A DNA stretch of 64,000 bases from Algoriphagus lutimaris (GTDB lineage: Bacteria; Bacteroidota; Bacteroidia; Cytophagales; Cyclobacteriaceae). The number at the start of each line of letters is the position of its first letter. The first letter of the stretch is position 1. Under the pieces are notes generated by a model. The model saw only the letters and a program-made list of their open reading frames with translations. It did no database searches and was not told the DNA's origin. The translations under genes were made by a program, and so were the position numbers. The stretch lies in the NCBI RefSeq assembly GCF_017051705.1, contig NZ_JAFIDJ010000003.1:225126-289125 (forward strand), read 5' to 3'. Shown here one piece after another: positions 37,108-54,084 of this stretch.

Positions 37108-37245
37108 TTAAAAATCTCTGCCAATGGTAAGAATTCTATTGTTTCAAAAAGAAATAATTTGTAATTCAGCCCGATTTGTCATTTGATTTTCGGTTATTTA
37201 ATCCCGATTTATTGCAAATCCTCTAATTACAGAAAAATTGATATT

Positions 37246-40200
37246 ATGAATTTCCCAAAAAACCTACGTACCATTCTAGTCTTAGCGGTGCTTGTAAGTT
37301 TGGGTACATGGAGTTGTAAAAACAAACGCTCCGGTTCTCCAAAAGTGCTCGTATTCAGCAAGACAGCAGGTTATTATCACGAATCTATTCCCAATGGAAT
37401 TGCAGCCATACAAAAGCTTGGTTCCGAAAATGGCTTTGAAGTAGACACTACTACTCAGTCAGAAAAATTCAACGAAGAAAATTTAGCTCAATATTCCGCT
37501 GTCATATTTTTGAGCACAACTGGTGATGTATTAAATAGTTACCAGGAAGCTGACTTTGAAAGATATATTCAGGCAGGCGGAGGATATGTGGGTGTACACG
37601 CTGCTGCAGACACCGAATATGGTTGGGGCTGGTACGGTCGATTGGTAGGTGGATATTTTACTGATCACCCAGGAATAAACGATCCTAATCCTAACGTTCA
37701 ACCTGGAGAAATCACCGTAGTAGATGCTAATAACCCTGCTACTTCATTTTTACCAAGTCCTTGGGCAAGAACAGACGAATGGTATAGCTATAAAAACATG
37801 AACCCCGAGGTGAATGTACTTTTAGAATTAGACGAAAACTCCTACAAAGGTGGATTTGATATGGGAGAGCATCCCATTGCCTGGTATCATAATTATGATG
37901 GAGGAAGAGCTTTCTACACTGGAGGCGGACATACCAATGAGTCTTACACTGAAGAATTATACTTAAAACACCTTTTAGAAGGAATTAAGTATGCGATTGG
38001 AGACAATCTTGAATTGGATTATTCCAAAACAACAAGTAAGAGAGTACCAGAAGAAAACAGGTTTACTAAAACTCCTTTGGCTTATGGAGTCTTTACCGAG
38101 CCTACAGAGATGACCATCCTGCCAAATTTGGATATTCTTGTAGCACAAAGAAGAGGTGAAATACTCTTCTTCGACAATGAAACAGAAGAACTGAAAGAGG
38201 TAGCTAAACTGGATGTTTATTGGAAAACTGAGGTTAAAGGAGTCAATGCAGAAGAAGGGTTGATGGGAATCCAAAAAGATCCGAATTATGCTGAAAATGG
38301 ACACGTATTCGTTTACTACTCTCCTGCAGGTGATGAGGAGATCAACAGGCTTTCCAGATTTACTTTCAAGAATAATACTTGGGACATGAGCTCCGAAGTA
38401 GTGATTTTGGATATTCATTCTGATAGAGACATTTGCTGCCATACTGGAGGTTCCATTGCTTTTGACAAAGACGGAAATCTATTCCTATCATTGGGTGATA
38501 ATTCTACTCCATTCAATCAGGCTGATTCAAAATATAGAAACAATGGTTTCGCTCCATTAGACCAAAGGCCTGGATATGAACAATATGACGCTAGAAGATC
38601 TTCTGGAAATGCCAATGATTTAAGAGGGAAAATCCTTAGAATTAAAGTGAATGAAGACGGGTCTTATGACATTCCTGAGGGGAACCTATACCCAGTAGGA
38701 ACTGAGGGCACTAGACCTGAAATCTATGTGCAAGGGAATAGAAACCCTTATAGAATTTCAGTAGACCAGAAAAATGGTTTCTTGTATTGGGGAGAAGTGG
38801 GACCAGATTCCAATGCAGACAGCATGGCGACCCGAGGACCTCGAGGATATGATGAAGTAAACCAAGCCAGAAAAGCGGGGAACTTCGGATGGCCGTTTGC
38901 AGTAGGCAACAATTATCCTTATCATGAATATAATTATGAAACCGGAGAGTCAGGACCAGCATTTGATCCTAATGGACCGAAAAACACTTCTGTAAACAAT
39001 ACCGGAATCACTGAATTACCAGAACTTGCCCCGGCATTCATTTGGTATCCATATGGTGAATCCAAAGAATTTCCTCAAGTGGGATCAGGAGGCAGAAATG
39101 CCATGGCAGGTCCTGTGTATTATTCCGATATGTATACCGCAGACACTAAATTCCCGGATTATTTCGATGGAAAGGTCTTTATCTACGATTGGATTAGAGG
39201 GTGGGTCAAAGTGGTAACCATGAAAGAAAACGGCGACTTCGATAAGATGGAACCGTTTATGCCAAGCACTAAATTCAATGCCTTGATAGACATGGAAATG
39301 GGACCTGATGGCAGAATTTATATTTTGGAATATGGAAATGGATGGTTCTCCAAGAACCCAGATTCAGGACTTTCTAGAATAGATTTCAATGGTGGCAATA
39401 GAGCGCCTGTAGTTACCGATATTTCTGCAGATAAAACTTCCGGCACCAATCCACTGACCGTTACATTCACTGCTGCTTCTTCTGATCCTGAAAATGATCC
39501 TTTGACTTATACTTGGGATCTAGGAAACGGCGAAACCAAAACAACTGATGTCCCTACCCTTACCCATACATTCAATACCATAGGCGAATATGAGGTAAAA
39601 GTTACTGCTAAGGATCCTGATGGGTTAACTGGAACCAGTGGAATAGAAAGTGTTTACTCTGGAAATATCGCTCCTATTGTAACCATTTCAATAGATGGAA
39701 ATCAGTCTTTCTACTTCCCTGGAAAGAAAGTATCATACAGCGTATCTGTAGAAGATCCAGATAACCCTGAATCAGCCACAGATATGAGTACCCTTTATGT
39801 TTCTGCTGACTATATCGAAGGTCTGGATCAGGCAGAGTCTGATATGGGACACAAAGTGATGACTGAAGCCATGATGGGTAAATCCTTATTTACCACTTTG
39901 ACTTGTAAAACCTGTCACAAAGAAGCTGAAGCTTCAGTAGGACCATCTTATGTGGATGTAGCCAAGAAATATGGCCAAAGGGATATAGATTACCTAAAAA
40001 ACAAAATTAAAAATGGTGGCGGAGGAGTCTGGGGAGAAACAGCAATGCCTGCAAACCCGGATTTAAAGGATTCTGACCTAAATGCCTTAGTAGCCTATAT
40101 TCTTTCTTTGGATCAAGTAACCACTCCATCTTTACCAGCATCGGGAACAGTTGATGCGACAGCTGGAAAAACCCCGAGCCCTAATGGTGTATTAATGCTC

Positions 40201-40692
40201 AATGCATCCTATACAGATCAAGGAGGGGAAAATGTAAAACCTTTAACAGGCTCTACCACACGATTGCTAAAAAGCAACACTGTAGACATGGGGAATACAG
40301 GAGATTATGCTGGTGGGTATAGCAGTATGAGCTATGATGGAAATAACCTATTAATGGTCCCAAAAACTGAGGCTTCGTTCTCTATGGATGGAATTGATTT
40401 GACAGGGGTGGGTTCCGTAACTGCAATCGCTGTAACGATGGGAAGCCTTGGAGATGAGTTTGATTTCGAACTTAGATTAGATTCTCCAACTGGCGAATTG
40501 GTTGGGTCTTCTACATTTGTTCAAAAACCATCCAGCGGGCCTGAAGGAGCTCCAAACTTTGGTCCATTTACTATCCCAATTACAGGAAATGCAGATGGAC
40601 AGCTTCATAAGCTATTTGTAGTTACCAAACCTAAAAATGATGGAGGATCCGGTACTTTTGTAGTATCAGGAATGACCTTCAATGCCAAATAA
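37246..40692 (+). CDS. Giant lipoprotein: ThuA, sugar-dehydrogenase propeller, PKD, cytochrome c and beta-sandwich domains
   Basis: 1148-aa exported protein. The ATG at 37246 yields a signal peptide with lipobox Cys24 (SLGTWSC); an upstream in-frame ATG at 37183 would add a non-signal extension. Domains in order: ThuA-like (~30-255; VLVFSKTAGYYHES, GGGYVGVHAAADTEYGWGWYG), a GSDH/PQQ-sugar-dehydrogenase-type beta-propeller (~285-710; EEGLMGIQKDPNY, GNRNPYRISVD), a PKD domain (~725-800; NPLTVTFTAASSDPENDPLTYTWDLGNG), a cytochrome c domain with CKTCH at 887-891, and a C-terminal CBM6-like beta-sandwich (~950-1148). It may oxidise sugars and pass electrons to its own heme. Proteins of this architecture are common in Bacteroidota but poorly characterised. 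Confidence 0.88.
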   Translation: MNFPKNLRTILVLAVLVSLGTWSCKNKRSGSPKVLVFSKTAGYYHESIPNGIAAIQKLGSENGFEVDTTTQSEKFNEENLAQYSAVIFLSTTGDVLNSYQEADFERYIQAGGGYVGVHAAADTEYGWGWYGRLVGGYFTDHPGINDPNPNVQPGEITVVDANNPATSFLPSPWARTDEWYSYKNMNPEVNVLLELDENSYKGGFDMGEHPIAWYHNYDGGRAFYTGGGHTNESYTEELYLKHLLEGIKYAIGDNLELDYSKTTSKRVPEENRFTKTPLAYGVFTEPTEMTILPNLDILVAQRRGEILFFDNETEELKEVAKLDVYWKTEVKGVNAEEGLMGIQKDPNYAENGHVFVYYSPAGDEEINRLSRFTFKNNTWDMSSEVVILDIHSDRDICCHTGGSIAFDKDGNLFLSLGDNSTPFNQADSKYRNNGFAPLDQRPGYEQYDARRSSGNANDLRGKILRIKVNEDGSYDIPEGNLYPVGTEGTRPEIYVQGNRNPYRISVDQKNGFLYWGEVGPDSNADSMATRGPRGYDEVNQARKAGNFGWPFAVGNNYPYHEYNYETGESGPAFDPNGPKNTSVNNTGITELPELAPAFIWYPYGESKEFPQVGSGGRNAMAGPVYYSDMYTADTKFPDYFDGKVFIYDWIRGWVKVVTMKENGDFDKMEPFMPSTKFNALIDMEMGPDGRIYILEYGNGWFSKNPDSGLSRIDFNGGNRAPVVTDISADKTSGTNPLTVTFTAASSDPENDPLTYTWDLGNGETKTTDVPTLTHTFNTIGEYEVKVTAKDPDGLTGTSGIESVYSGNIAPIVTISIDGNQSFYFPGKKVSYSVSVEDPDNPESATDMSTLYVSADYIEGLDQAESDMGHKVMTEAMMGKSLFTTLTCKTCHKEAEASVGPSYVDVAKKYGQRDIDYLKNKIKNGGGGVWGETAMPANPDLKDSDLNALVAYILSLDQVTTPSLPASGTVDATAGKTPSPNGVLMLNASYTDQGGENVKPLTGSTTRLLKSNTVDMGNTGDYAGGYSSMSYDGNNLLMVPKTEASFSMDGIDLTGVGSVTAIAVTMGSLGDEFDFELRLDSPTGELVGSSTFVQKPSSGPEGAPNFGPFTIPITGNADGQLHKLFVVTKPKNDGGSGTFVVSGMTFNAK

Positions 40693-40797: not shown

Positions 40798-42171
40798 TTA
40801 CTCAAAAATCTTTTTCATAATCAAGCCCTGAATATCTACAGGAGAAATATGGTTATCCTCAATTAAGGATTCATCCGTTGTAAAAAACACTGGGTGATCT
40901 AAACTATCCTCTGGAATTCTACCATGTGCACCCTTTACCAAAGTAGCATCCAAAGGAATCACATCCATCAAATACCGGAAGCCCAATTTCTTCTTCAAAA
41001 CTTTCAATCCCACTTTGACCATAGGTAGGGAGAATTCAGGATTTATAAATAATTCCACTGGGTCGTACCCTGGTTTTTGATGAATCGCTACACATCTGGC
41101 ATAATCAGGTGCTTTTGAATCATCCAACCAGAAGTAATAAGTGAACCAAGAGTCTTTATCCGCGACAACTACCAAATCTCCGGAACGCTCATGATCTAAA
41201 TGATACTTCTTCTTTCCTTCTTCATCTAAAATCAGATCTACACCTGGAGTCTCCTCCAAGAGCTTTTTAACTAAAGGAAGGTCAGCCTTATCTTTGACAT
41301 GAATATGCGCCAATTGGTGATCCACCACGGCAAATGCACGGCTTGTACCAGCATCTAATGTTTCCAAACCCAATTCATTTTTGACCTGGATAAGTCCCGC
41401 TTTTCTAAAAACCCGGTTGAGGTGGACAGGATTCGAAACCGAGGTGATTCCATATTCAGAAAGTAAAATCACTTCAGCTCCTTGATTTTCATAGTAAGTA
41501 ATCAAGTCTTCACAAACTGCATCTATCTCCCTTAAATCTTTAGAGATCTTGGAGAAATCTATTCCATATTTCTGAAGCCCATAATCCAAATGTGGAAGGT
41601 AGATTAAGGTGAGGGTAGGATTTTTCCATTCATCTACTTTCTTGGAAGCATTCGCAATCCATTGGGTAGACTCTATATTGGCGTTAGGACCCCAAAAAGA
41701 AAATAAAGGAAATTGCCCCAACTCTTCTTGAAGCCTATCTCTTAAATCCATAGGGTGAGAATGGCAGTCAGGTATTTTTCTACCATCAGAGGGGTACAAT
41801 GGCCTTGGAGTTACCTGGTAATCAGCGGTAGAATACATATTATACCACCAAAACATATTGGAAACGGTGAAATTAGGATCTTTCCCCTTAGCAATATCCC
41901 ATATGTTTTTTGCTTGAACCAGCTTATTGGATTGTCTCCAAAATTTGATCTCACACTCGTCTTGGAAATACCATCCATTACCTACAATCCCATGTTCGGT
42001 AGGCCACTTCCCGGTTAAGTAGGTAGTTTGAGCAGAGGTGGTAACTGCCGGAAGAACTGGATCAATAGAAGCTTGAAGTTTATCTGAAGTCCACTTTTTT
42101 AAGAATGGGGTATGTTCACCTATCAACCTTTTGGACAAGGCCACCACATCTATGACAACCGTTTTTTTCAT
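40798..42171 (-). CDS. eboF: EboF: alkaline-phosphatase-superfamily nucleotide pyrophosphatase/phosphodiesterase
   Basis: 457-aa metal-dependent phosphoesterase of the NPP type and the last gene of the ebo operon. The metal and nucleophile region is near the N-terminus (VVIDVVALS; LPAVTTSAQTTYLTGKWPTEHGIVGNGWY, with the Thr nucleophile in the TTSAQTT stretch). LIYLPHLDYGLQKYG supplies Asp/His ligands, and LLSEYGITSV takes the place of the usual DHG. No signal peptide is evident. The ebo cluster is linked to moving metabolite precursors to the periplasm; the phosphoesterase might process a phosphorylated or nucleotide-linked intermediate. Its start overlaps eboE by 4 nt. Confidence 0.85.
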   Translation of the reverse strand: MKKTVVIDVVALSKRLIGEHTPFLKKWTSDKLQASIDPVLPAVTTSAQTTYLTGKWPTEHGIVGNGWYFQDECEIKFWRQSNKLVQAKNIWDIAKGKDPNFTVSNMFWWYNMYSTADYQVTPRPLYPSDGRKIPDCHSHPMDLRDRLQEELGQFPLFSFWGPNANIESTQWIANASKKVDEWKNPTLTLIYLPHLDYGLQKYGIDFSKISKDLREIDAVCEDLITYYENQGAEVILLSEYGITSVSNPVHLNRVFRKAGLIQVKNELGLETLDAGTSRAFAVVDHQLAHIHVKDKADLPLVKKLLEETPGVDLILDEEGKKKYHLDHERSGDLVVVADKDSWFTYYFWLDDSKAPDYARCVAIHQKPGYDPVELFINPEFSLPMVKVGLKVLKKKLGFRYLMDVIPLDATLVKGAHGRIPEDSLDHPVFFTTDESLIEDNHISPVDIQGLIMKKIFE

Positions 42172-43385
42172 TTCTTCTTGATATTTTCAGTCACCCAGAG
42201 AAGTTCTCGAATGATAGAACTTTGAATATCTATGTTTATCCCCTCAGGTAATACATCCCATGTATAGGTTTCCACCTCGAGATGCTTTGAAACATCTTTT
42301 TCCTGAACCAATTCCAGTACTTCCAAAATATCAGATTGAGTAGATGATACCTGTCCATAATCCGATAAAAAAACAGGGACATGGAAGTGAATCCTCCATT
42401 CATTTTGAGTGGTTTCGGAAAGTAAATTCAACGCTTGATCTAAATCTCTATGGGATTCGATATGTCCGTTATGATCTCTTCCAATTACCTGATGTAAATA
42501 AGTGGACTCAGCAAATGGCGACAGCGTTTCTTTGATCAAGGATCTTCCAGATTCTGAATCCGGGATATTGATTTTCAATGCTGCTGAGACTTGAATCTTT
42601 CCAATCTTAATTCCCGCTGCTTCCATTGCCTTGAAAACATCAGCAGGCTTTTCATAAACCAAGGCAAAATGACAAACATCATAACATAATCTAATATGCT
42701 CTCTAATTGCCGATTCCGCATCTTGTTTGCTCATTTGAAGGGAGTCCATCAAATCTCTGGTCCCCATTGGGATCAACCAATCTTGAAAATAGGCGAGCAT
42801 TTCTGCTGTATTTTCTAAAATACCATCCGGTTCTGGCTCAATATCCAAATGAAAGACTTTTCCGGTCTTCTGCTTAATCTCAATCAATTTAGTTACTACC
42901 TGAACCAAATGGGTGGTGGACTTTGTAATCGCTCGATCTAAATCATGTTGGGTATTAAACCAAAATCGATAAGACAAAGGAGAAGTAGAAATACCTCCCT
43001 CCATTTGATCAGGAAGTAATTCTGCGAGTATTTCAAAAAGTCGAATGGTATAATCTCTTCTTTCTTTGGTAGTCCAATCCGGATAATGGACCTTGTCTTT
43101 TACCACTTGTCCATGAAAGCCACCGTAGGGAAACCCATTCATGGTAAAAACATAGCAGTCATTTTCTTCCAACCAAGATTTAAACTGATGTAGTTCTTCT
43201 TGTCTTTGTAAAACCAAACTAGCTTCATTGGAGAGCCTTAATCCAATCCCAAAAGGTTGAGCGGAAGAAAGTTCTTCCTTAATATTGGGGATGTATTTTT
43301 TAAGATTTTCGAAGGTTTCTTTCCAGCTTTCTCCAGGGTGAATATTGGTACAATAAGTCAGGTGAGTTCCTTCTTTTACAATCAT
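42168..43385 (-). CDS. eboE: EboE: TIM-barrel metabolite traffic protein
   Basis: 405-aa protein of the xylose-isomerase-like TIM-barrel superfamily and the ebo signature member. The N-terminus MIVKEGTHLTYCTNIHPGESW is highly typical of EboE. Barrel residues that could bind metal are visible in FHLDIEPEPDG (~200-210), RLCYDVCHFALVYE (~232-245) and WRIHFHVPVFL (~330-340). The reaction is unknown. It sits between eboD (34 bp away) and eboF (4-nt overlap). Confidence 0.87.
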   Translation of the reverse strand: MIVKEGTHLTYCTNIHPGESWKETFENLKKYIPNIKEELSSAQPFGIGLRLSNEASLVLQRQEELHQFKSWLEENDCYVFTMNGFPYGGFHGQVVKDKVHYPDWTTKERRDYTIRLFEILAELLPDQMEGGISTSPLSYRFWFNTQHDLDRAITKSTTHLVQVVTKLIEIKQKTGKVFHLDIEPEPDGILENTAEMLAYFQDWLIPMGTRDLMDSLQMSKQDAESAIREHIRLCYDVCHFALVYEKPADVFKAMEAAGIKIGKIQVSAALKINIPDSESGRSLIKETLSPFAESTYLHQVIGRDHNGHIESHRDLDQALNLLSETTQNEWRIHFHVPVFLSDYGQVSSTQSDILEVLELVQEKDVSKHLEVETYTWDVLPEGINIDIQSSIIRELLWVTENIKKK

Positions 43386-43419
43386 TATTTTTAAGAGTTT
43401 TCTGAAATAAAATGCAAAA

Positions 43420-44574
43420 TCAATTAGTAATCAACCGGTCCGCTTGAAAGGCTTTCAATTTTTCCACAGCCGCAATAATTAGCGTTTGATCCATTTCATG
43501 AACCTCTTCTCCTCGACCAAGCTTGGACAATAACATAATGGTTAATTCTCCACCTAAATGCTCTCTAAACTCTTCCAATCCCTTCAACAACATATCACCA
43601 GAAAGTACTTCATTGTATAGATGGAACCCTAATCTTGAAAGTACCGAGACAATCCTTTGAAGTTCTTCTTCAGTAATCATCCCCTTTAAGAAGGAATAGG
43701 TAGAATCCAATGCGATCCCCATCGCTACAGCCTCTCCATGTCGGATTTCATAACCCGAAAGGTGCTCCATTTTATGGGCGGCCCAGTGGCCAAAATCCAA
43801 TGGTCTGGAAGAACCCATTTCAAAAGGATCTTTTCCCGCAATATGATCTAAATGCATTTGGGCACATCTCACAATCAATTCTTGCATGGGTTCTATTTCT
43901 CTATTCGCTAGAGAAATTGCGTGATCCTCTATCCATTCAAAAAAATCCAAATCCTTAATCAATGCTACTTTGATCGCTTCGGAAATTCCGGATCTCCAAT
44001 CTCTTTCATCCAATGTTTCTAAGAAATTGAAATCGTTTAACACGGCAAAAGGAGGTGCAAAAGTGCCCAAGTAATTCTTTTTACCAAATGAATTAATTCC
44101 ATTTTTAACCCCCACTGCAGAGTCATTCTGTGAAAGGACGGTAGTAGGGATTCGGATTAACCTAATGCCTCTATGAGAGATGGCCGCAGCAAAACCAACC
44201 ATATCCAATACTGCCCCTCCCCCTATCGCAACGATGTAAGAATGTCGGTCAATACCATATAAATGGGTAGCCTCTACTATTTTTTCATAGTACTGAAGGT
44301 CATTTTTGGAAGCTTCACCCCCTGGAACAATCAGTGGTTCGGCACATAATTTAAACTGAGCAGTATGTGCATCGGCATATTCCTTGATTTGATCCACTAA
44401 GCTAGGATGAGCTTTAGCTACTCCACTATCAACCACAAAATAGGCTTTCCCTCCTTTGCCATTGTCTAGCAAACCAGCCAAGGTATCATCTCCCTCATCA
44501 AATATGTTTTGAGAGAAAATCACCGGATAGGTATAAGGTACCGCAAATGATTGTTCTATTATTCTTTTCATCAA
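43420..44574 (-). CDS. eboD: EboD: 3-dehydroquinate synthase-like sugar-phosphate cyclase
   Basis: 384-aa member of the dehydroquinate synthase superfamily. The NAD and metal-binding parts are intact: PGGEASKND (~83-91), AIGGGAVLDMVGFAA, the Lys/Glu region GISEAIKVALIKD, and HGEAVAMGI with a zinc His. The loop that reads S-x-GGKTGIN in classic AroB is DSAVGVKNGIN here, so this is not an ordinary AroB and may use another sugar phosphate. The catalytic family is clear; the substrate is not. The start may be at either of the first two Met codons. Confidence 0.86.
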   Translation of the reverse strand: MMKRIIEQSFAVPYTYPVIFSQNIFDEGDDTLAGLLDNGKGGKAYFVVDSGVAKAHPSLVDQIKEYADAHTAQFKLCAEPLIVPGGEASKNDLQYYEKIVEATHLYGIDRHSYIVAIGGGAVLDMVGFAAAISHRGIRLIRIPTTVLSQNDSAVGVKNGINSFGKKNYLGTFAPPFAVLNDFNFLETLDERDWRSGISEAIKVALIKDLDFFEWIEDHAISLANREIEPMQELIVRCAQMHLDHIAGKDPFEMGSSRPLDFGHWAAHKMEHLSGYEIRHGEAVAMGIALDSTYSFLKGMITEEELQRIVSVLSRLGFHLYNEVLSGDMLLKGLEEFREHLGGELTIMLLSKLGRGEEVHEMDQTLIIAAVEKLKAFQADRLITN

Positions 44575-44645
44575 TTACTCAATCTAAAACAGGGGCAAAA
44601 GGTTCTTTCGGCCTGCAATTTATTGCTTTAAGCATATTTTTTAGC

Positions 44646-45554
44646 TTAGGTCACTGCAAATTTTCTGGCCAGCCAAAGAGAAATTGGCAATAAGATTAAT
44701 ACCATTAAACCATATAACCATCCTGCAAATGCTGCAGACAGTGACGCATTTACTATTATCAATGAAATCACCGCGGCTTTGACTGCTTTCCCAATCAATT
44801 TTGGATCCTGTTTTTGAATGGCCTTTACCAAGGGTGGAAACACCATAAAAACAAATAGAACCACGAAAGGAATCACTTCCATAAGCTTCCCTCCAAAGCT
44901 ATGAGCCAACAGAAGGATACCCGCTACTATCGCGATATACATAAATAAGCCCCCAAATAAGGCTTTTTTATTTTTCCCATGAACTTCTCCTCTACTGATC
45001 ATGGTGATAGCCGATACAAATATCAATGGAATCAATCCTATAAAGGCATATTCAGAAACTAGTTCTGGAATCACGCTGATACCTAATAACAAGTTTCCTG
45101 CTCGGCACAGCCCCATATTGATAGGACCAAAAAAATGCTGATGCTTACCCCAATAATCATATAACACGGCACACAAGGCAACAGCAAATGCAATGATTGC
45201 TGAAGTCATACTGACCATTGCAGCGGCTAGTACTCCTATCACAAGAAGCAAAAATGCCATGGTAGCAGCACTTCTTATAGAGGCTCTTCCACTAGGGATG
45301 GGGCGCTCTGGTCTTTCTACTGCATCTAGATCGGCATCAAAAACGTCGTTAAAAGCTACCCCTCCTGCATAAAGTCCAATGGTAGACAACACCAACCAAG
45401 CTAATTCTATTAAATGACCACTTTCATTAGAAAAAGAAGTTAAATAAACGCCCATTCCAGCAATAGCAAAACCCGCCAAAATATCTGCTATGGCAGTGAC
45501 CACATTGGCTGGCCTGGTAAGCTGCAAATGAGCAAATACCTTCGATGTATTCAT
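44646..45554 (-). CDS. eboC: EboC: UbiA-like prenyltransferase
   Basis: 302-aa integral membrane protein with ~8-9 helices. LQLTRPANVVTAIADILAGF opens helix 1. The Asp-rich motif NDVFDADLDAVERPERPIPSG (~68-88) is the typical UbiA prenyl-diphosphate site. The second Asp-rich motif of UbiA enzymes is weak (the loop reads YDYWGKHQHFFGP), a point shared by other EboC proteins as far as I recall. It may prenylate or anchor a metabolite at the membrane. Only 3 nt separate it from eboB. Confidence 0.87.
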   Translation of the reverse strand: MNTSKVFAHLQLTRPANVVTAIADILAGFAIAGMGVYLTSFSNESGHLIELAWLVLSTIGLYAGGVAFNDVFDADLDAVERPERPIPSGRASIRSAATMAFLLLVIGVLAAAMVSMTSAIIAFAVALCAVLYDYWGKHQHFFGPINMGLCRAGNLLLGISVIPELVSEYAFIGLIPLIFVSAITMISRGEVHGKNKKALFGGLFMYIAIVAGILLLAHSFGGKLMEVIPFVVLFVFMVFPPLVKAIQKQDPKLIGKAVKAAVISLIIVNASLSAAFAGWLYGLMVLILLPISLWLARKFAVT

Positions 45555-45557
45555 GAA

Positions 45558-46469
45558 TTAATTCTCCACACGATCGGCAGGCCCATCTACTCGGGGAACT
45601 TGGCCTCCTCTCAACACTGAATTTCCTGACATTTTCTTGGTCTGGTCTATTGGTTCAGCATTCAACCAATCCAATTCATCCATTTGACCACTCTGGGAAT
45701 ATGCTGTCAAAGCATTTTGATAACAGGTCAATCGAATGTGTTCTTCCGGTACTCCCATTTTACGCATCAATGCAGCAGTTTTTGGAACTGCCAATGGATC
45801 TGATATTCCCCAGTCAGCGGCAGAATCTACAATAATCCGTTCTGGCCCATATTGTTTTACAATGTCCACCATTCGCTCGCTTCCCATTTTGGTGTGTGGG
45901 TAAATGGTAAATGCAGCCCAATAGCCACGATCTAATACTTCTTTTACGGTCTCTTCATTATTATGATCCACAATCACCATATTTGGAGCCAAACCATGTT
46001 CCTCACTGACATCCATGCTTTTTGTGGTTCCTTTTTTCTTGTCACGGTGTGGAGTATGAATCATCACTGGAAGATCCATTTCTTTGGCTAGTTCTAATTG
46101 CAGTCTATAAAACTTATCTTCTGCTGCAGTTTGATCATCATAACCGATCTCTCCAATTGCTACTACCCCTTGCTTGCCTGCATATAGTGGAAGTAGTTCC
46201 ATCACCTGTTCTGCCAAAGGCTCGTTATTGGCCTCTTTTGAATTTAAACCAATCGTACAGTAATGTACAATTCCAAATTGCTTGGCTCTGAAACGTTCCC
46301 ACCCAACTAAACTGCTGAAATAATCTTTAAAACTAGCAGCTTCGGTGCGGGGTTGACCTAACCAAAAGGCAGGCTCTATGATCGCCACAATGCCTGCTTT
46401 TCGCATTGCTTCGTAGTCATCAGTTGTTCTGGACGTAACGTGTATATGTGGATCAATAAACATTTCCAT
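45558..46469 (-). CDS. eboB: EboB: TatD-like metal-dependent hydrolase
   Basis: 303-aa TIM-barrel amidohydrolase-type protein. The N-terminal FIDPHIHVTSRTTDDYEAM has the first HxH metal pair, followed by the EboB-typical AIIEPAFWLGQPRT. VMIHTPHRDK (~135) and MVIVDHNNEETV (~165) give further ligands, and IIVDSAADWG the late Asp. True TatD DNases are usually ~260 aa and differ in these loops. It forms the ebo block with eboA 50 bp upstream and eboC 3 nt downstream. Confidence 0.87.
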   Translation of the reverse strand: MEMFIDPHIHVTSRTTDDYEAMRKAGIVAIIEPAFWLGQPRTEAASFKDYFSSLVGWERFRAKQFGIVHYCTIGLNSKEANNEPLAEQVMELLPLYAGKQGVVAIGEIGYDDQTAAEDKFYRLQLELAKEMDLPVMIHTPHRDKKKGTTKSMDVSEEHGLAPNMVIVDHNNEETVKEVLDRGYWAAFTIYPHTKMGSERMVDIVKQYGPERIIVDSAADWGISDPLAVPKTAALMRKMGVPEEHIRLTCYQNALTAYSQSGQMDELDWLNAEPIDQTKKMSGNSVLRGGQVPRVDGPADRVEN

Positions 46470-46519
46470 GTCTGGTAAATTTGGGGTTCTCTACTAATTT
46501 TTTATGCTTCTTAAAAGAT

Positions 46520-47416
46520 TTAAGCTAAAGCCATTGCTTCTTCGCCTATCCAATCCCAATTAAGCTTTCCTGATTCTATTTCGTTTTCAATTTCGCCATT
46601 CTTTTCCAAAAGGCTTTTAGCCTCAGGAAAATCCGACATACTACATGCCAATAAAGCCGCCCTTTTTTCTAATTCGCTGCCTTCTTCTACCACTTTCTTA
46701 AGGTCCTCAATATTTTTTGAATTAATAAAAGGACCTACAAACCTCCACAATTCAGGAATTACATTTCTCCCTGCAGACCATCTTTCATGAGCAAAATCGA
46801 TGATAATATCAGCCAGCTCTTGGTTAGCTCGTGCTTCTGCATGCTGGATTTTGAACAGAGGGCGTTGCATAAAAATGGCTTTCACAACCATTTGATTCCA
46901 GGCGCTCTCATCGAAGTAGGTAGATGGATAAGGATTATTTAATGCCACTGCATCAAACACGGAAGTGATATTGGTCCTCAAACCTTCCCTGGCTCTACCA
47001 ATCATTTCTTCTGCAAAAGGCATAATCGGCAATGCCGAGTACAAGGCCTCAATTTCAAGCATATCTCCTGTTTCAAATAGCTTTTGAAGGGTACTCTTCC
47101 AAGAAGCTGAATCAGCTGCTGGATATTGAAGTAGTAAATAAACTCTTGACGCCTGAAGTTGGCTCCATAAATCCATCCTTAGGCCCGCACATAAAGCTTG
47201 GGATTCGTGAAACTGATCCACGCTAAGTTTAAAAGGAATACTTTTAAAATATCTAGAAGCCTGACTAAAGGCCATAAAAAAATCCATTTCCTTTTCGGAC
47301 AATAGAATTTTCTCTCTTTTTTGAGCTAACCAAACAATCGATTTCTCAGCAACTTGGTCACTTAGAGCCGAAAGTATGATCGTGGCAATTGGGTTTACTT
47401 GATTTGAGATAGACAT
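46520..47416 (-). CDS. eboA: EboA family protein
   Basis: 298-aa soluble, mostly helical protein with no known catalytic motif and the first gene of the ebo operon. The C-terminal half has the family hallmark ALNNPYPSTYFDESAWNQMVVKAIF (in parts), RPLFKI, ELADIIIDFAHERWSAGR and PELWRFVGPF. No signal peptide or membrane segment is seen. Its promoter should lie in the 220-bp gap towards the sulfatase gene. A role as assembly or cargo-handling factor is only a guess. Confidence 0.87.
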   Translation of the reverse strand: MSISNQVNPIATIILSALSDQVAEKSIVWLAQKREKILLSEKEMDFFMAFSQASRYFKSIPFKLSVDQFHESQALCAGLRMDLWSQLQASRVYLLLQYPAADSASWKSTLQKLFETGDMLEIEALYSALPIMPFAEEMIGRAREGLRTNITSVFDAVALNNPYPSTYFDESAWNQMVVKAIFMQRPLFKIQHAEARANQELADIIIDFAHERWSAGRNVIPELWRFVGPFINSKNIEDLKKVVEEGSELEKRAALLACSMSDFPEAKSLLEKNGEIENEIESGKLNWDWIGEEAMALA

Positions 47417-47636: not shown

Positions 47637-49130
47637 TCATTCCTCAGAAGACTCCTTCTCACTTCTGTAAAAAGAAAATATAGGGTTTTGGATATGGGAT
47701 GAACTCATCAAGCTTTGTAACTCCTGAGCTTTTTCGGGAAACTCATTTGCGATGTTATTAGTTTCTCCAGGATCCTTACTTAAATCATATAATTCCAAAA
47801 TAGGCTGATCACTTTTAAATACTTCTAGTTTCACAGCTTTCCAGTTGCCTTGTCTAACTGCTTGTTTTCCTCCCTGCTCATGAAATTCCCAGTACAAATA
47901 CTCATGTTCTTGCTGCTCTCCTTCTCCCACCAAGGTAGGATAGAATGAAATCCCATCGATTACCGAAGATATCTTCGCCCCCGCTACCTCAGCAAAAGTG
48001 GGAAGCAAATCCCAAAATGCAGCCACATGGCCAGTGGTAGTTCCTGCTTTGATCTTGTTCGGCCACCAGGCAATCATTGGAGCCCGAACTCCCCCTTCAT
48101 ATAAATCTCTCTTAAAACCTCTGAATTGTCCATTACTATCAAAAAACTCAGGATCCGCTCCTCCCTCTCGATGCGCACCATTATCTGAACTGAAAATAAT
48201 TAGCGTATTATCTGAAAGACCATTCTCTTCCAACTTATCTATGACCTCACCCACATAACGATCAATCCTTTCTACCATTGCTGCAAAAGTTGCATGAGGA
48301 TAAGGTTGAGACTGGTACCCTGGAATACGCATATCAGGACCATAATCAGCACCTTTACCCCCTACATAAGGTTCTTCATTTGGAAACATCTTTTTGTATT
48401 TAGCCATTAACTCGTCATCAGGGGCAGCGAGTTCTGCATGAGGAGTTACAATAGGCATAAAAAGAAAAAACGGTTTCTCCGCATTTTGATCTATAAACTC
48501 CAGAGTCTTCTCCTGAATAATATCCGGTGCGTAATCCCCAGTAGTAGTCCAATCATTACCTGGCAAATCAATTTTTTGATCATTATGCCATAAATAAGCA
48601 GGGTAATAACGGTGCGCATATCGTTGGCAATTGTACCCAAAAAACTCATCAAACCCTTGGTTCACTGGCTCTCCTGTCGATCCTATAAATCCTAAGCCCC
48701 ATTTTCCAAAAGCACCAGTGACATAACCTGCTTGTTGCATGGCTTTACCAACCGTCATTACAGAATCGGGCATTGGAAACTGACCTTCAGGCTGCACCTC
48801 TGAATTACCTCTAATGGGGGTATGTCCTGTATGCAAACCAGTCAAAAAAGAAGATCTCGAAGGAGCACAAACTGTGGAACCTGAATAAAAATCAGTAAAG
48901 AACATTCCTTCTTTTGCCAGCCGGTCAATATTAGGGGTTTCAATGTATTGTTGCCCCAAGAACCCCAAGTCTCCATAACCTAAATCATCAGCAAGGATAA
49001 AAATGATATTGGTCTTTTTTTTAGCTACTGCTTCATCCTTATTCGTTGGAGACTCGCATCCGAAAAAAAGTAGGGAAGCAATCGGTAAAAAAAAAGCAAA
49101 TTTGGTGGTGAAAAAGAGTTTCTTTGTCAT
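47637..49130 (-). CDS. Sulfatase (S1 family, arylsulfatase-like), lipoprotein
   Basis: Formylglycine-dependent sulfate ester hydrolase, 497 aa from the ATG at 49130, which places a lipobox Cys25 (SLLFFGC) correctly; the longer reading has a 13-residue extension before the signal. Metal site ILADDLGYGD starts at ~45. The sulfatase signature CAPSRSS has the formylglycine Cys88, and GKWGLGF and SSDNGAHREGG follow. The Cys-type site needs a formylglycine-generating enzyme, not found in this window. It lies downstream of the Gfo/Idh gene but behind a hairpin terminator. It would desulfate a glycan taken up by the SusCD system or act earlier at the cell surface. Confidence 0.92.
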   Translation of the reverse strand: MTKKLFFTTKFAFFLPIASLLFFGCESPTNKDEAVAKKKTNIIFILADDLGYGDLGFLGQQYIETPNIDRLAKEGMFFTDFYSGSTVCAPSRSSFLTGLHTGHTPIRGNSEVQPEGQFPMPDSVMTVGKAMQQAGYVTGAFGKWGLGFIGSTGEPVNQGFDEFFGYNCQRYAHRYYPAYLWHNDQKIDLPGNDWTTTGDYAPDIIQEKTLEFIDQNAEKPFFLFMPIVTPHAELAAPDDELMAKYKKMFPNEEPYVGGKGADYGPDMRIPGYQSQPYPHATFAAMVERIDRYVGEVIDKLEENGLSDNTLIIFSSDNGAHREGGADPEFFDSNGQFRGFKRDLYEGGVRAPMIAWWPNKIKAGTTTGHVAAFWDLLPTFAEVAGAKISSVIDGISFYPTLVGEGEQQEHEYLYWEFHEQGGKQAVRQGNWKAVKLEVFKSDQPILELYDLSKDPGETNNIANEFPEKAQELQSLMSSSHIQNPIFSFYRSEKESSEE

Positions 49131-49151
49131 GTACGGGTTATTTAATTTTCT

Positions 49152-49186
49152 ATAAAAAAGCTCAACCAAGGATAACTTGATTGAGC
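49152..49186 (-). terminator. Minus-strand terminator between the Gfo/Idh and sulfatase genes
   Basis: GCTCAACCAAG (49160-49170) pairs with CTTGATTGAGC (49176-49186) with one mismatch; on the minus strand it is followed by six T. Confidence 0.85.
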
Positions 49187-49214: not shown

Positions 49215-50378
49215 TTATTTTTCAGTCCATTCAACACCTGTGTCTTTCCATGCTTTCTCATTCGCAGAGTTTATCACTGCCTCACATACTTTTTGAGTCT
49301 CAAAAGCATCTTTAAAAGTAGGGTGGCATTCTGTACCCTCATCTAAGCTTTTAAAGAAGTCAGCTACTTGATGAATAAACGAATGCTCGTACCCAATGGA
49401 AGTTCCTGGAATCCACCATCTATCCATGTAAGGATGATCTCCATCCGTCACGTGAATTGACCTCCATCCTCTTACTTGTCCTTCATCATCGTGATCAAAA
49501 TACTCCAATCTTGTCAGATCATGAAGATCCCATCTGATGGAAGCATGCTCTCCATTGATTTCAAAAGTATAAAGCGCCTTGTGACCTCTTGCATATCGAG
49601 TAGCTTCAAAAAGTCCCAAAGATCCATTATCAAAATGGCAGTGGAAAATACAAGCATCATCAATGGTTACTTCTTTCTTCTCACCTGTACCTTGATGTAC
49701 CCGCTCTTTGATAAAGGTTTCTGTCATGGCAGAGACATCTTTGATTCCACCATTGATCCACATAGCTGTATCAACACAGTGTGCCAATAGATCACCGGTC
49801 ACACCCGAACCTGCAGCTTCTGCATCTAGTCTCCATAATGCATCTCCTCCCTGTGGTAAATCAGGGCTGATAGTCCAATCCTGAAGAAAGTTTGCTCTGT
49901 AATGGAAAATTTTTCCAAGCTTCCCTGAAGCAACAATCTGCTTTGCTAGGGTAACTGCAGGAATTCTTCTGTAATTATACCAAACCGTATTTTGAACTCC
50001 AGCTTCTTCTATAGCATCTACCATTTTCTTTGCTTCTTCCACTGTTCTTGCCAACGGCTTTTCACAAAGAATCATTTTTCCTGCTTTAGCAGCTGCAATG
50101 GCGATTTCGGCATGCATATCATTAGGAGTACAAATATCCACTGCATCGATATCGTCTCTTTCCAATAATTTTCTCCAATCGGTTTCTACCGACTTATAGC
50201 CCCACTGTTCTGCAAATGCTTCCACCTTTTCCTTTCTTCTGGAACAAGCAGCCTGCAAAACTGGTCTATGCTCATATTCTGGGAAGAAGTCTGCCAATCG
50301 TTTATAGCCGTTGGTATGGATTCGACCCATCAAACCTGTTCCGATTAATCCTATTCGTATATATTTTTTTTCGCTCAT
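49215..50378 (-). CDS. Gfo/Idh/MocA-family oxidoreductase
   Basis: 387-aa NAD(P)-dependent sugar or inositol oxidoreductase, cytoplasmic (no Tat or Sec signal). The Rossmann loop [17 protein letters not shown] starts at ~8. [13 protein letters not shown] and the family EKPLAR motif (~105-112) follow, and the substrate domain has [13 protein letters not shown] with the catalytic His. It ends the four-gene operon DUF4432-cupin-TIM isomerase-Gfo/Idh. With the DUF1080 hydrolase next door it is a good candidate for oxidising or reducing the C3 position of a hexose (3-keto-sugar step), but this is inferred from context. Confidence 0.9.
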
Positions 50379-50448
50379 TGTTTTTAAATCTATTATTGAA
50401 AATTGAAAAAGAGGGTGAACTACACCTCTTGATTATTGGCTTAATAAT

Positions 50449-51471
50449 TTATTCTGACCATCCGTGAGCCTCTCTCACTTTGATCATCGCCGCCAAAATA
50501 TCATTCCATGTCTGTTGATTTTCCATTACTGAATTCGGGAACATACAGCCATCCCAACAGATATGCTTAAAGGCTTTCGTTAAATTTCCATTTTCATCTC
50601 TCAACCAATATCCTGCATCATGGGTAATATCCAACAAACCATTTGGATCTGTAGCTTGGCAGTGGCGTCCTGTTTTATCATGTGATCCAGAACCGAAAAC
50701 ACTTCCATCATTTTGAGCCACATGGAAATCAATTGTCCAAGGTCTTAACGCATCGGTCACTGTTTTCAGAGCTGTCTCAATAGCACCTCTATCTTTCAAA
50801 TCTACATCCTTTGGTAAAATCCTATGTTCTGGAGCATTATACCCCAACGTGTAAAGGAAGGTATGGGACATATCAGCCTGGAAACCAATATTTGGTCTAT
50901 CCACCATTTCCATCAATTCTACCATATGTTTCCAGCTGTGCATGGCTCCCCAACAAATCTCTCCTTCTGCAGCAAGCTTCTCACCAAACCCAGCAGCAAT
51001 ATCACATGCTTCTCTAAAAGTATCTGCAATTTGCTTAGTATTTCCTGCAGGGTCTTTAGCCCAAGCCTCCACAGAAGAAGCTGAATCTATTCGGATCACC
51101 CCATACTTTCTGACCCCCAAGTCATTGAGCTCTTTTCCGAATTCGCAGGATTTGCGAACCATTTCTAAAAATGTTTTTCGCTGTTCTTCTGTCCCCATAG
51201 CTGCTCCAGCCCAAATCGGCGCCACCATCGAACCTATATTCAAATTATATTTTGATACTTTATCTGCAACTTTCTTTGCCTCATCAGGAGCATCTAAATT
51301 GATATGTGGCTCAAGTAAACCAATATCTACTCCGTCAAATTTCACCCCATTGACTTCAGCAGCAGCTGTCATCTCCAAAAGCGAATCAAAAGGAATTACA
51401 GGTTCGGAGTCTGGGCCCTTTCCTACTAATCCAGGCCACGTTGCATTATGTAATTTCGGGAAATTATTCAT
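50449..51471 (-). CDS. Sugar phosphate isomerase/epimerase-like TIM-barrel protein
   Basis: 340-aa xylose-isomerase-like (AP endonuclease 2 superfamily) protein. [24 protein letters not shown] opens the barrel. Likely metal ligands are in [12 protein letters not shown] (~45-56), [17 protein letters not shown] (~165-180), FQADMSHTF (~197-205), [11 protein letters not shown] (~252-262) and a final ICWDGCMFP. Such proteins work with Gfo/Idh oxidoreductases in inositol and 3-keto-sugar metabolism, and the Gfo/Idh gene is 70 bp downstream. The exact substrate is unknown. Confidence 0.86.
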
Positions 51472-51531
51472 AGTTAAAAGTGGGTTTTATGTTATTGCAC
51501 TTGTTTATTAAACTCGACCTATAAGTTAGGA

Positions 51532-52743
51532 TTACTCCACTACTTTAAGGTCAGGATTATCTGGTCCAAAATGTTTTAGCATGACGATCGGATCAGTCTT
51601 GGAATGGTTCGTAATTTTCACTCCTTCTTGAGCTGCCTTTTCTGAAACAAAATACTCATCATGGGTCAACTGCCCAAATCGAATCAATGCCGGAGTCTCA
51701 ATATCCCAATTATTCATCTTACCATATCCTTGCATCATGATCATTCCATAAGCCGCTGAGTCTTTAATGGTCACAGTTTGTCCGGGGAAAATGGTTAATT
51801 CTTTTGCTGAATAATCATGAGAGCGGTAACAAATCCATTTATCATCGTAGCCTTCGGCATTCATAGTGGCACGGTCCTTCACAGGTATAGGCTCCATGTA
51901 ATGGTTATCCATCAAATTAGGATTGACATTCAAATCCCAATCGATCATCTCCACTAAGAGGTCATAATCGCCCCATCTATCTTTTGGAGTGGCATTCCAT
52001 AACAACTCATCGGGTATAATGGCTTCATTTACCAGTGATTGGTACATCGCAAAAATATCCGAAGCTTTTTGAGGTTCGTAGGTACATAAACTTCCAGGTG
52101 CATGAAGCATTCCAGGAGGAACATTCCATCCAGTTCCCGGCTCTAACTTAAAAGCCTGAGAGTAATTCGTGATTTTATTATCTCCTTTATTGAAGTTCTT
52201 CAGACATTCTAAAATGGTCTCTTTGGAAGTTCCTGGAGCAATACCGAAAAATGTATAAGGAAAATCACCCCCATGGTTATTGACTTGGGGAGGAAAATAA
52301 TAAGCTTCTGGCTTACCATTTTGTCCAGTCAATTTCCCAAACTCATCACTCGGGTGTATATGGTGCGGTAAAGGCCCCATATTATCAAAAAACTTGGAAT
52401 ACATAGGCCAAGACTTGTACTTATCCCAAAGTCTTTCTCCTATGATCTGACCTCCTAATTCATTGATGGCATCTTTAAGCAAAAACAATTCTGTTTTTCC
52501 ATTTTCTTCAAAAGCAATATGACTCAACCCTTCATTTTTGCTTGTCAACGGTCCATTCTCTGCTGGAGTAGTAGACGAAAACCAACGCTCGTCTATACCC
52601 CCTCTGGCTCCACCTAAGGCATAATAATCATCTGGGTGCAATTTGATTCTTCTACCAGGCACACAAAATGATCTGGGAACCCAAGTGGGAGTCAATCTTA
52701 ATATTCCTTCTCCTTGTTCGAGCGCTTTCTTTGCTAAACTCAT
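51532..52743 (-). CDS. Class I mannose-6-phosphate isomerase-like cupin protein
   Basis: 403-aa cytoplasmic cupin. LPHHIHPSDEFGKLTG (~126-141) with the following GKPEAYYF resembles the zinc-binding QVHPNDEYA and KTECWY parts of ManA. GWNVPPGMLHAPGSLCTYEP (~207-226) is like the second ManA motif PAGTPHA. A C-terminal cupin-like repeat follows (ELTIFPGQTVTIKDSAAYGMIMMQG). It is larger than short bacterial M6P isomerases and lacks parts of their sequence, so an isomerase for another (keto-)sugar is possible. It is the second gene of the four-gene operon, 71 bp after DUF4432. Confidence 0.8.
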   Translation of the reverse strand: MSLAKKALEQGEGILRLTPTWVPRSFCVPGRRIKLHPDDYYALGGARGGIDERWFSSTTPAENGPLTSKNEGLSHIAFEENGKTELFLLKDAINELGGQIIGERLWDKYKSWPMYSKFFDNMGPLPHHIHPSDEFGKLTGQNGKPEAYYFPPQVNNHGGDFPYTFFGIAPGTSKETILECLKNFNKGDNKITNYSQAFKLEPGTGWNVPPGMLHAPGSLCTYEPQKASDIFAMYQSLVNEAIIPDELLWNATPKDRWGDYDLLVEMIDWDLNVNPNLMDNHYMEPIPVKDRATMNAEGYDDKWICYRSHDYSAKELTIFPGQTVTIKDSAAYGMIMMQGYGKMNNWDIETPALIRFGQLTHDEYFVSEKAAQEGVKITNHSKTDPIVMLKHFGPDNPDLKVVE

Positions 52744-52814
52744 TTTTATAATTGGTTAACGGGTTATTGAGTAATTATATGTTAAAAATAGGGTACTACC
52801 CCTATTTTAATCTC

Positions 52815-53906
52815 CTATTTAAAATCGTTTACATCCTTTCCTGTAATTGCCTCCAAGATCAAATCATAAGACTTATATTCTCCAGGCTGCAACATAATCA
52901 ATGTTTGATTTTTCTTTGCTTCAGCTTGACCTATAGGGGGATTGGTAGCAGGTTCCAAAGCTGTAACATATTCATTTTCTCCCCAATGTTGCCAATGGAT
53001 TAACCAAGGCAATTGCTTTTTTGAAAACGATATTTTCAACCCCAATTGAAGGGCATCATTTGCATATCCGCATACTACCTGATCTGATTCTCCATTGGAA
53101 GGATTAATAAAAGCTACATCTTCTCCAAAGCCATCATGTTCCTTTAAAGGTGGGGCACATCTAGTAAATTGATACTTTTTATTAAAGTCAGTATTATTTT
53201 CGTCGCTGGCTTTTGGGATTATTTCTCCTTGCCAAACAATCCTCGTTCCATCATCGATCAAAGGCCATCCACAATTAATATGATATAATACCATATGTGG
53301 GGCCGGAGTATTTCCTTTATTTAGCACTGTATCGCTGATCCGTATCGCGGCTGAGCCCAACTCACCTGAGATAGTCCTGGTCAATTCCAAACTGGGACCA
53401 AAAGTGCTGGTTTCTGTAATTTTTCCGACTATCTCAAAAGAAAGATCATTTCTATACAAATCTGGTTGTTTAATGGAAATCAACTCAGCAGGAATGTTAC
53501 TGAAGTTTCCATGTAAGCCTCTTTCACCAGTTTCATCTGAGTTGGGAGGCCCTGCATTAGACAATCCACATGTCGTCAATAATCCTCCACCAAAAGTCCG
53601 AAGCCAATCAATTCCCTTATTGGAAAAGGGTTGTGGCGAAACATGTCCTGAATGACTTATCCAGGCCAAACTACTCTCATTAAAAAAGCAGTCTAAAATA
53701 TCCAACCCTCGATCTAGGACAACCTTATACCGGAGTCCTGAACCTGTATTAATCCATGCAATTCTCACTCCCCTTCCAGAACCATTGTCCAACACAGAAG
53801 TTTCAATTCCTCCAAGTTGCTGAGAATTAGAAATTTTCCGCTTCCAGTTATCTATTTGAGCTATTTCGGGTGAGTTCATAGGATTATTTAACACCATAAT
53901 TTCCAT
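52815..53906 (-). CDS. DUF4432 aldose-epimerase-like protein
   Basis: 363-aa protein of the galactose-mutarotase-like superfamily, DUF4432 branch, without a signal peptide. Typical parts are GVRIAWINTGSGLRYKVVLDRGLDILDCFF (~48-77, in two stretches), PSNKGIDWLRTFGGGLLTTCGLSN-like text (~95-118), GERGLHGNFSNIPAE with a central His, and MVLYHINCGWPLIDDGTRI. It is the first gene of the operon with the cupin, TIM isomerase and Gfo/Idh genes. A degenerate copy of the locus operator lies ~20 bp upstream of its start, behind the DUF1080 terminator. Anomerisation of a keto-sugar is a plausible role. Confidence 0.83.
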   Translation of the reverse strand: MEIMVLNNPMNSPEIAQIDNWKRKISNSQQLGGIETSVLDNGSGRGVRIAWINTGSGLRYKVVLDRGLDILDCFFNESSLAWISHSGHVSPQPFSNKGIDWLRTFGGGLLTTCGLSNAGPPNSDETGERGLHGNFSNIPAELISIKQPDLYRNDLSFEIVGKITETSTFGPSLELTRTISGELGSAAIRISDTVLNKGNTPAPHMVLYHINCGWPLIDDGTRIVWQGEIIPKASDENNTDFNKKYQFTRCAPPLKEHDGFGEDVAFINPSNGESDQVVCGYANDALQLGLKISFSKKQLPWLIHWQHWGENEYVTALEPATNPPIGQAEAKKNQTLIMLQPGEYKSYDLILEAITGKDVNDFK

Positions 53907-53924
53907 TTCAAAGGCCTGTTTTCC

Positions 53925-53940
53925 ATCCTGTAGTGTCAGG
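53925..53940 (-). promoter_or_regulatory. Degenerate CAGGAY direct-repeat site upstream of the DUF4432 operon
   Basis: On the minus strand it reads CCTGACACTACAGGAT: one perfect half (CAGGAT) and, 10 bp before, a 4-of-6 half (CCTGAC). It agrees with three sites in the susC-rhaDE gap, including the A just before the second half. Confidence 0.35.
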
Positions 53941-54007
53941 TTTTAAAAGTTAATCGTATCCTTCAGGTATACCAAGAAGGGATTGATTAATGGTCAAATA
54001 CTTAGTT

Positions 54008-54053: not shown

Positions 54054-54084
54054 AACATTAACAATTAATCTATTCCCAACCCTA

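Follow-up and report, generated by a model that had tools for sequence, protein, structure and literature searches.

A complete, intact ebo operon of the ABCDEF type was identified, with near certainty, in a stretch of 64,000 nucleotides from Algoriphagus lutimaris (NCBI RefSeq assembly GCF_017051705.1, contig NZ_JAFIDJ010000003.1, positions 225,126 to 289,125; this whole stretch is called the window below). Comparison with ebo loci of other genomes revealed that the sugar-phosphate cyclase EboD alternates with inositol-3-phosphate synthase (MIPS). The two enzymes belong to unrelated families that both form six-membered carbocycles, and their alternation is the strongest indication to date that the ebo product contains a cyclitol. 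We propose, with a probability of about 0.5, that ebo makes a prenylated cyclitol serving as a carrier lipid for small molecules across the inner membrane, by the steps set out in the last section. Relative to the literature searched, the EboD/MIPS alternation, the loss of zinc ligands in EboF, the loss of the second Asp-rich motif in EboC and the association with TMEM220 are new; the operon itself has been known since 2016.

The ebo operon and its distribution

Six intact minus-strand frames, none of them broken, fill positions 40798-47416 of the window, and the intergenic gaps from eboA to eboF are 50, 3, 71, 34 and -4 nt. The source genome comprises 4.7 Mb in 61 contigs. The genes are as follows:

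46520-47416, minus strand: eboA, 298 aa, probable scaffold or partner protein (NCBIfam EboA_domain)
45558-46469, minus strand: eboB, 303 aa, TatD/AF_1765-like metal-dependent hydrolase fold (Pfam TatD, 63.2 bits)
44646-45554, minus strand: eboC, 302 aa, UbiA-superfamily membrane prenyltransferase without the second Asp-rich motif
43420-44574, minus strand: eboD, 384 aa, TTG start, sugar-phosphate cyclase distinct from the housekeeping AroB
42168-43385, minus strand: eboE, 405 aa, xylose-isomerase-like TIM barrel (fold according to PMC5133447)
40798-42171, minus strand: eboF, 457 aa, alkaline-phosphatase/NPP fold whose dizinc site is mostly replaced

Three of the proteins pass the cut-offs of dedicated NCBIfam models: EboE (TIM_EboE, 518.9 bits, cut-off 250), EboC (prenyl_rel_EboC, 418.1 bits, cut-off 250) and EboA (EboA_domain, 173.0 bits, cut-off 50). 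With the narrower EboA_family model, EboA scored 239.4 bits, below the cut-off of 320. No dedicated NCBIfam model matched EboB or EboF, and Pfam alone places both (TatD and Phosphodiest, respectively). The initial annotation of this DNA had described a complete eboABCDEF operon in canonical order with these gaps, which is borne out by the frame coordinates and by the NCBIfam matches of EboA, EboC and EboE. It had also named two checks, both of which were run: EboA and EboE pass dedicated models (for EboA, the domain model) instead of falling to unrelated families, and the six genes are conserved together in most of the related loci described next, so the claim stands.

To survey related loci, genome contigs were searched with a cross-phylum EboE alignment and the best 80 of 576 relatives were fetched, so the set of 80 leans to ABCDEF types; gene orders in these loci rest on our own open reading frame calls. 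The ABCDEF order on one strand was found in 58 of the 80 loci (57 plain, and one with eboA split in two frames), or in 50 when a start codon was also required near the expected place. In 11 loci eboD is reversed upstream of ABCEF, and in another 11 ebo is partial or rearranged, several of these being on short contigs. EboB, EboD and EboF of the window are orthologous to those of other ebo operons and were recovered in the same order beside EboE in the 58 loci. Among 148 genomes of the same family, EboA was found in 53, EboC above cut-off in 51, EboE in 53 and all three in 51; across the phylum, EboE was present in 28 of 335 sampled genomes. Given this occurrence within the family and the conserved order, the window copy is a standard ebo operon and not a chance assembly, and ebo in such a genome is an ordinary occurrence (53/148 family genomes with EboE). 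EboE is the most widely conserved ebo marker. Its alignment of nine rows across phyla contains the invariant motifs EPEP, C.D..H, H.HVP and E.ETYTW; a search of the EboE profile against solved structures was uninformative.

The ABCDEF form in Bacteroidetes and Cyanobacteria was described by Yurchenko et al. (2016; PMC5133447). Compared with the operons of Bacteroidetes, Cyanobacteria, Leptospira and eustigmatophyte plastids covered there, the window copy has the same genes, order, strand and families and shows no essential difference, the flanking sulfatase and sugar genes being local. An ebo copy has also been reported from the Phycorickettsia endosymbiont (PMC6092422). The six families are likewise common to the window and Nostoc punctiforme, but Nostoc has eboD close by on the opposite strand and its cluster accompanies scytonemin genes (PMC6282210); in the window eboD is on the strand of the other five genes, and the neighbors scanned include no scytonemin genes. 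Klicki et al. (2018) found that the Nostoc ebo mutants analysed, eboD not being among them, hold scytonemin monomer in the cytoplasm; the same paper suggests a lipid carrier for ebo and recounts the Pseudomonas EDB cluster (PMC6282210).

Alternation of EboD with inositol-3-phosphate synthase

The EboD protein passes the model PRK06203, named "3-dehydroquinate synthase" (568.9 bits, cut-off 333), and fails the AroB equivalog model (240.7 bits, cut-off 305). A separate AroB, which passes the latter model at 346 bits, is present on contig C1 of the same genome, beside frames that we take to encode DAHP synthase and AroA. In the EboD alignment, E198, K201, H262, H278 and K156 are kept in 82/82 rows and D150 in 81/82. 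By the computed alignment these residues coincide with positions that we take to be the zinc and catalytic sites of AroB. In EboD, Asp takes the place of the AroB Asn, a feature shared with three annotated sedoheptulose-7-phosphate cyclases; FREH stands where AroB has DKK, and its Arg is Gln in 18 rows. In a tree with long branches, EboD forms one group (100/99) apart from two AroB and the three annotated sedoheptulose-7-phosphate cyclases. The candidate assignment of EboD as the housekeeping AroB was thus rejected, because it fails the AroB cut-off, lacks the Asn and the DKK motif, and the genome has its own AroB. The substrate of EboD is probably a heptulose phosphate.

MIPS makes inositol phosphate. 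A search of the plasmid collection with EboC, from which alone all MIPS-type loci come, retrieved Streptomyces records in which an SCO3242-type prenyltransferase adjoins MIPS. The order in the annotated Streptomyces loci is MIPS, prenyltransferase, sugar isomerase, EboA, EboB, EboE and EboF, with no EboD. These clusters (L032, L033, L126 and L127) share EboA, EboB, an EboC-like protein, EboE and EboF with the window, but differ from it in carrying MIPS instead of EboD and an extra sugar-isomerase TIM barrel. In the EboD slot, MIPS was found in actinobacteria, Gemmatirosa and some haloarchaea. Four haloarchaeal loci with an EboC-like gene were fetched, and in three of them (L037, L133 and L134) MIPS occurs together with relatives of EboB and EboF. 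These three have EboB, the EboC-like protein and EboF in common with the window, but have MIPS instead of EboD, an extra sugar-isomerase TIM barrel, plain TIM barrels, no EboA and no standard EboE. The cluster MIPS resembles the Archaeoglobus enzyme (E 3.7e-67); on the mycothiol INO1 model (cut-off 638) it reaches 43.6 bits.

The alternation was quantified in a census of the 48 plasmid records that EboE matched, in which EboD or MIPS was counted within 8 kb at the best place per record, from the best 60 of 108 EboD records and the best 60 of 136 MIPS records, one place each. Among the matches listed, EboD was found in 15 records, MIPS in 29, both in none and neither in four. Profile scans of 20 of the 48 loci gave a similar picture (EboD 8, MIPS 9, both 0, neither 3). 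In a tree of EboB and EboF (34 rows, 16 of them of unusual letter make-up), Gemmatirosa, with MIPS, groups with two Deinococcus, with EboD, at 100/100, and the well-supported branches force at least two changes between the EboD and MIPS labels.

SCO3242 (transferase) and SCO3243 (myo-inositol phosphate synthase) are listed among the CDA-cluster genes of Streptomyces coelicolor, in an account whose accessible text makes no mention of ebo (PMC3610822). The words "inositol" and "TMEM220" are absent from the main texts of PMC5133447, PMC6282210 and PMC9235831. No literature linking ebo to MIPS or TMEM220 was found among the matches listed, in a search that mostly did not extend to subscription papers and preprints.

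Several further gene neighborhoods were observed in the fetched loci. The ebo genes of Ketogulonicigenium lie between genes for two Gfo/Idh oxidoreductases and a sugar isomerase (L035:4759-6805, 13211-14122), which hints at redox editing of the ring. Two MIPS-type Streptomyces loci, L033 (3002-4201, 13130-14608) and L127 (3188-4390, 13906-15414), are flanked by a gene annotated as ScyD/ScyE and a multicopper oxidase gene, an arrangement that recalls the periplasmic oxidation step of scytonemin. In Hymenobacter (L145:5779-12405), MIPS is found among HD-domain, Gfo/Idh, YcaO-like and sugar isomerase genes in a run that carries no ebo annotations; this run is possibly a separate inositol-linked cluster.

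Companion proteins and neighboring genes

The first Asp-rich motif of EboC, NDxxDxxxD, is present in 77/77 rows. DxxxD, the second Asp-rich motif of UbiA proteins, was found in none of the 68 ABCDEF-type rows and none of the 21 other rows; in its place stands T...x.E (68/68 ABCDEF-type rows and 17/21 other rows). Among solved structures, EboC is closest to DGGGP synthase (6m31, E 2.9e-11), an enzyme that prenylates a glycerol derivative. EboC enzymes from Maribacter, Zobellia and Algoriphagus, described as UbiA-297/EboC farnesyltransferases, have been reported to farnesylate quinoline acids in vitro, including 8-hydroxyquinoline-2-carboxylic acid (PMC9235831). The window protein belongs to the same EboC family, which includes the Algoriphagus enzyme, and its own activity is predicted. 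The initial annotation had called the ebo product unknown in all cases, a statement that holds for the pathway but is too broad with respect to EboC, given these farnesylation products.

EboF matches Pfam Phosphodiest (PF01663) over its full length (194.8 bits, profile 1-342 of 342). In NPP3 the zinc ligands are D168, T206, D326, H330, D373, H374 and H483, described as strictly conserved in the NPP and alkaline phosphatase families (PMC6052110). According to an alignment to solved NPPs that is weak (best E 1.2e-8), EboF keeps three of the seven (T44, D196 and H416), and four are replaced, with V10, Q200, E239 and Y240 aligned to D168, H330, D373 and H374. The pattern was followed in 77 ABCDEF-type and 23 other rows, where the exceptions are Gly for Glu in 1/77 rows and Leu for Gln in 3/4 haloarchaeal rows; in addition, one row has a gap at the first blocks and another at the last block. 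Because the alignment to solved NPPs is weak, the first ligand place could be off by two, and residue 8, two before the Val, is Asp in 41/77 rows and Asn in 35/77. A search of EboF alone against solved structures was uninformative. The description of EboF as an NPP-type phosphoesterase, given in the initial annotation, holds for the fold, while the activity is doubtful because four of seven zinc ligands are replaced in nearly all 100 rows.

For EboB, the closest solved relative is the archaeal AF_1765 (3guw, E 2.3e-26), the next-best match being at 2.5e-05. Its metal-type residues H8, H10, E107, H138 and H169 are invariant in 73/73 core rows, and Ala occupies the position aligned with the last TatD Asp. 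The EboA profile (46 rows) had no match among PDB chains, even with E-values as high as 1; a scaffold role for EboA was suggested in PMC6282210.

Analysis of the flanks of the 80 loci revealed one small membrane protein that recurs near ebo in 17 of them. One member matches Pfam TMEM220 (PF15071, 88.3 bits, cut-off 27), and with a profile built from 18 such sequences TMEM220 was detected in 21/80 loci, upstream or downstream of ebo and on either strand. In the family set, PF15071 was present in 51 of 53 EboE genomes and in 33 of 95 without EboE (P-value = 1.6e-14); in the phylum set it was present in 21 of 28 EboE genomes and 23 of 307 others (P-value = 1.3e-15). TMEM220 lies at most 8 kb from eboE in 14/53 genomes of eight genera, the distance being measurable in 29/51 genomes with both genes on one contig (G109, where they are ~205 kb apart, was left out). 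When one genome per genus was used, by which relatedness is partly controlled, the median P-value was 1.9e-7 and the worst 1.0e-5. As a control membrane family, rhodopsin (PF01036) was present in 26/53 versus 26/95 genomes (P-value = 0.012). Chance was rejected as the cause of the TMEM220 signal from the comparison of these P-values (0.012 vs. 1.6e-14); since rhodopsin is also enriched, part of the signal may be due to shared history. In addition, members of three genera (6, 16 and 31) retain TMEM220 without ebo, so TMEM220 is not an ebo-only gene. Human TMEM220 has a Golgi location and came up in a glycoprotein-secretion screen (PMC6979480). In Bacteroidota, TMEM220 probably takes part in ebo function.

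Further features of the window and its genome are listed below:

37183-40692, plus strand: ThuA/glucose-sorbosone dehydrogenase/PKD/cytochrome c protein (Pfam), convergent with eboF and bounding the operon
47637-49169, minus strand: sulfatase gene (Pfam Sulfatase, 214.8 bits), upstream of eboA and outside ebo
49215-54867, minus strand: five-gene run upstream of ebo, encoding a Gfo/Idh oxidoreductase, a TIM-barrel protein, a 403-aa protein, a DUF4432 protein and a 3-keto-disaccharide hydrolase
20270-21166: second UbiA-family protein of the window, with the DxxxD second motif present
Contig C41:1031-1324 of the same genome: TMEM220 homologue

The five-gene run occurs in the same order before eboA in 2/80 loci, both from Cyclobacterium (L055 and L061), where no sulfatase frame is found between the Gfo/Idh gene and eboA. 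The idea that the five sugar genes form part of the ebo pathway was rejected, the full run being found in just these two loci; for the same reason they are more likely mere neighbors, and they probably serve sugar catabolism. No scytonemin genes were found among the neighbors around ebo in the window that were scanned by Pfam. On plasmids of Aureibacter (Bacteroidota; L036:2072-5090) and Mycetohabitans (Betaproteobacteria; L040:1064-4124), a large hypothetical gene and a PF12902 ferritin-like gene lie directly upstream of ebo, possibly as a natural-product pair. Such a ferritin-like partner was rejected for the ebo operon of the window, as PF12902 has zero matches in its genome.

Proposed function and alternatives

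In the proposed pathway, EboD would cyclize a sugar phosphate, probably that of a heptulose, to a cyclitol; in other lineages MIPS would make the ring. EboB and EboE would then edit the ring, joined in some lineages by additional TIM barrels. EboC would join a prenyl chain to the ring in the membrane. EboA and EboF, the latter with its dizinc site largely dismantled, may assist as binding, presenting or scaffold proteins. The resulting prenyl-cyclitol in the inner membrane would help an aromatic or other small molecule to reach the periplasm, as proposed for Nostoc, and TMEM220 would probably take part in Bacteroidota. The ring headgroup is supported by the comparison of loci; the carrier role is suggested by analogy with the published Nostoc mutants, and the product, the order of steps and the roles of EboA and EboF are what we infer from these data. 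The experimental basis of the steps consists solely of the Nostoc export phenotype and EboC activity, both from other organisms. An isoprenoid-cyclitol product was proposed in 2016 (PMC5133447, section 3.7), and the suggestion of a prenylated or cyclitol-type compound in the initial annotation matches this published idea, which now draws support from the alternation of EboD and MIPS. A wider formulation, in which ebo is a cross-domain prenyl-cyclitol pathway of bacteria and haloarchaea with a ring made by EboD or MIPS, a non-hydrolytic EboF, a UbiA transferase lacking the second Asp motif and TMEM220 as the seventh component of export in Bacteroidota, is tentative and, as a whole, rather unlikely.

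Several observations weigh against the prenyl-cyclitol proposal. The census took one best place per record, so a weaker second cyclase could hide in the unfetched loci. Among the matches listed, near-copies with 94.9-100% identity to the query MIPS make up 19 of the 29 MIPS records, which brings the independent MIPS cases down to about 10 plus the haloarchaea; the other 10 records listed are from six further Streptomyces, two Embleya, Nonomuraea and Gemmatirosa. Four of the 48 records have neither cyclase. By profile scan, two of these (Streptomyces L123 and L124) keep just EboB, EboE and EboF, and in the reduced EboB/EboE/EboF cluster of L124 (872-8964) the open frame directly upstream of eboB presumably encodes a transposase; in the third (L039) EboE stands alone near polyketide genes, and the fourth is a partial match at the record end. 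In the haloarchaeal locus L132, MIPS is absent despite an EboC-like gene. Conversely, MIPS occurs without ebo neighbors in Halomarina (L135), where it shares 44.5% identity with the Streptomyces MIPS, and in Hymenobacter (L145), where it is less alike (40.3%). EboA was not found by profile scan in the fetched loci of Deinococcus, Gemmatirosa or haloarchaea. Two different cyclases could also supply two different products. For TMEM220, no copy was detected in the cyanobacterial loci among the 80 (each at most ~20 kb), it is absent from 2/53 family and 7/28 phylum EboE genomes, and the homologue in the genome of the window lies near a contig end, away from ebo. The main counter-evidence comes from EboC, which farnesylated 6/14 aromatic acceptors in vitro, and the accessible account of these assays mentions no cyclitol acceptor (PMC9235831).

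The EboC assays lead to the alternative that ebo makes a prenylated aromatic, for example a farnesylated quinoline acid, with EboD feeding a shikimate-like precursor and no cyclitol lipid being formed. The farnesylation of 8-hydroxyquinoline-2-carboxylic acid by the Maribacter, Zobellia and Algoriphagus enzymes favors it, as does the 60-69% identity of the window EboC to EboC of 12 Algoriphagus loci, and EboD passes a model carrying the name of 3-dehydroquinate synthase. However, an aromatic product would sit poorly with an inositol phosphate maker taking the place of EboD in actinobacteria, Gemmatirosa and some haloarchaea, and EboD itself lacks the DKK motif and the Asn of AroB and stays below the AroB cut-off; moreover, the published assays were run on membrane fractions with aromatic acceptors (PMC9235831). 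We regard this alternative as unlikely. Still less probable, in our view, is that the six Ebo proteins act as a complex for transport or assembly and make no small product, with enzyme folds mostly reused as binding modules. Such a complex would agree with the Nostoc mutants analysed, which pile up one common intermediate and none that is gene-specific (PMC6282210), and with the loss of most zinc ligands in EboF, as expected of a binding protein. Against this, EboD, EboB and EboE retain strongly conserved catalytic-type residues, EboC is an active enzyme in vitro (PMC9235831), and a purely structural role would not explain the alternation of two unrelated cyclases.

A further alternative is that EboF has an unusual metal site but is a genuine phosphodiesterase or prenyl-diphosphate phosphatase, whose step precedes that of EboC or EboD, a role proposed in 2016 (PMC5133447, section 3.7). 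The full-length Phosphodiest match is consistent with this, as is the conservation of three residues of the site, the nucleophile Thr, an Asp and a His, and, the alignment to NPPs being weak, the Asp or Asn at residue 8 could be the first ligand. The Val, Gln, Glu and Tyr found in bacterial EboF at the equivalents of NPP3 D168, H330, D373 and H374 argue in the other direction, and a catalytic EboF seems to us rather improbable.

The alternation of EboD and MIPS, if read as proposed here, would narrow the ebo product to compounds that contain a cyclitol ring. Through this alternation ebo is also linked to clusters of streptomycetes and haloarchaea that are not brought together with an inositol enzyme in the ebo literature searched. 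The accepted view of EboF is called into question, and TMEM220, a family with a human member, is offered as a possible ebo partner. As ebo spans several phyla and algal plastids, these comparative facts turn the question of its product into specific experiments.

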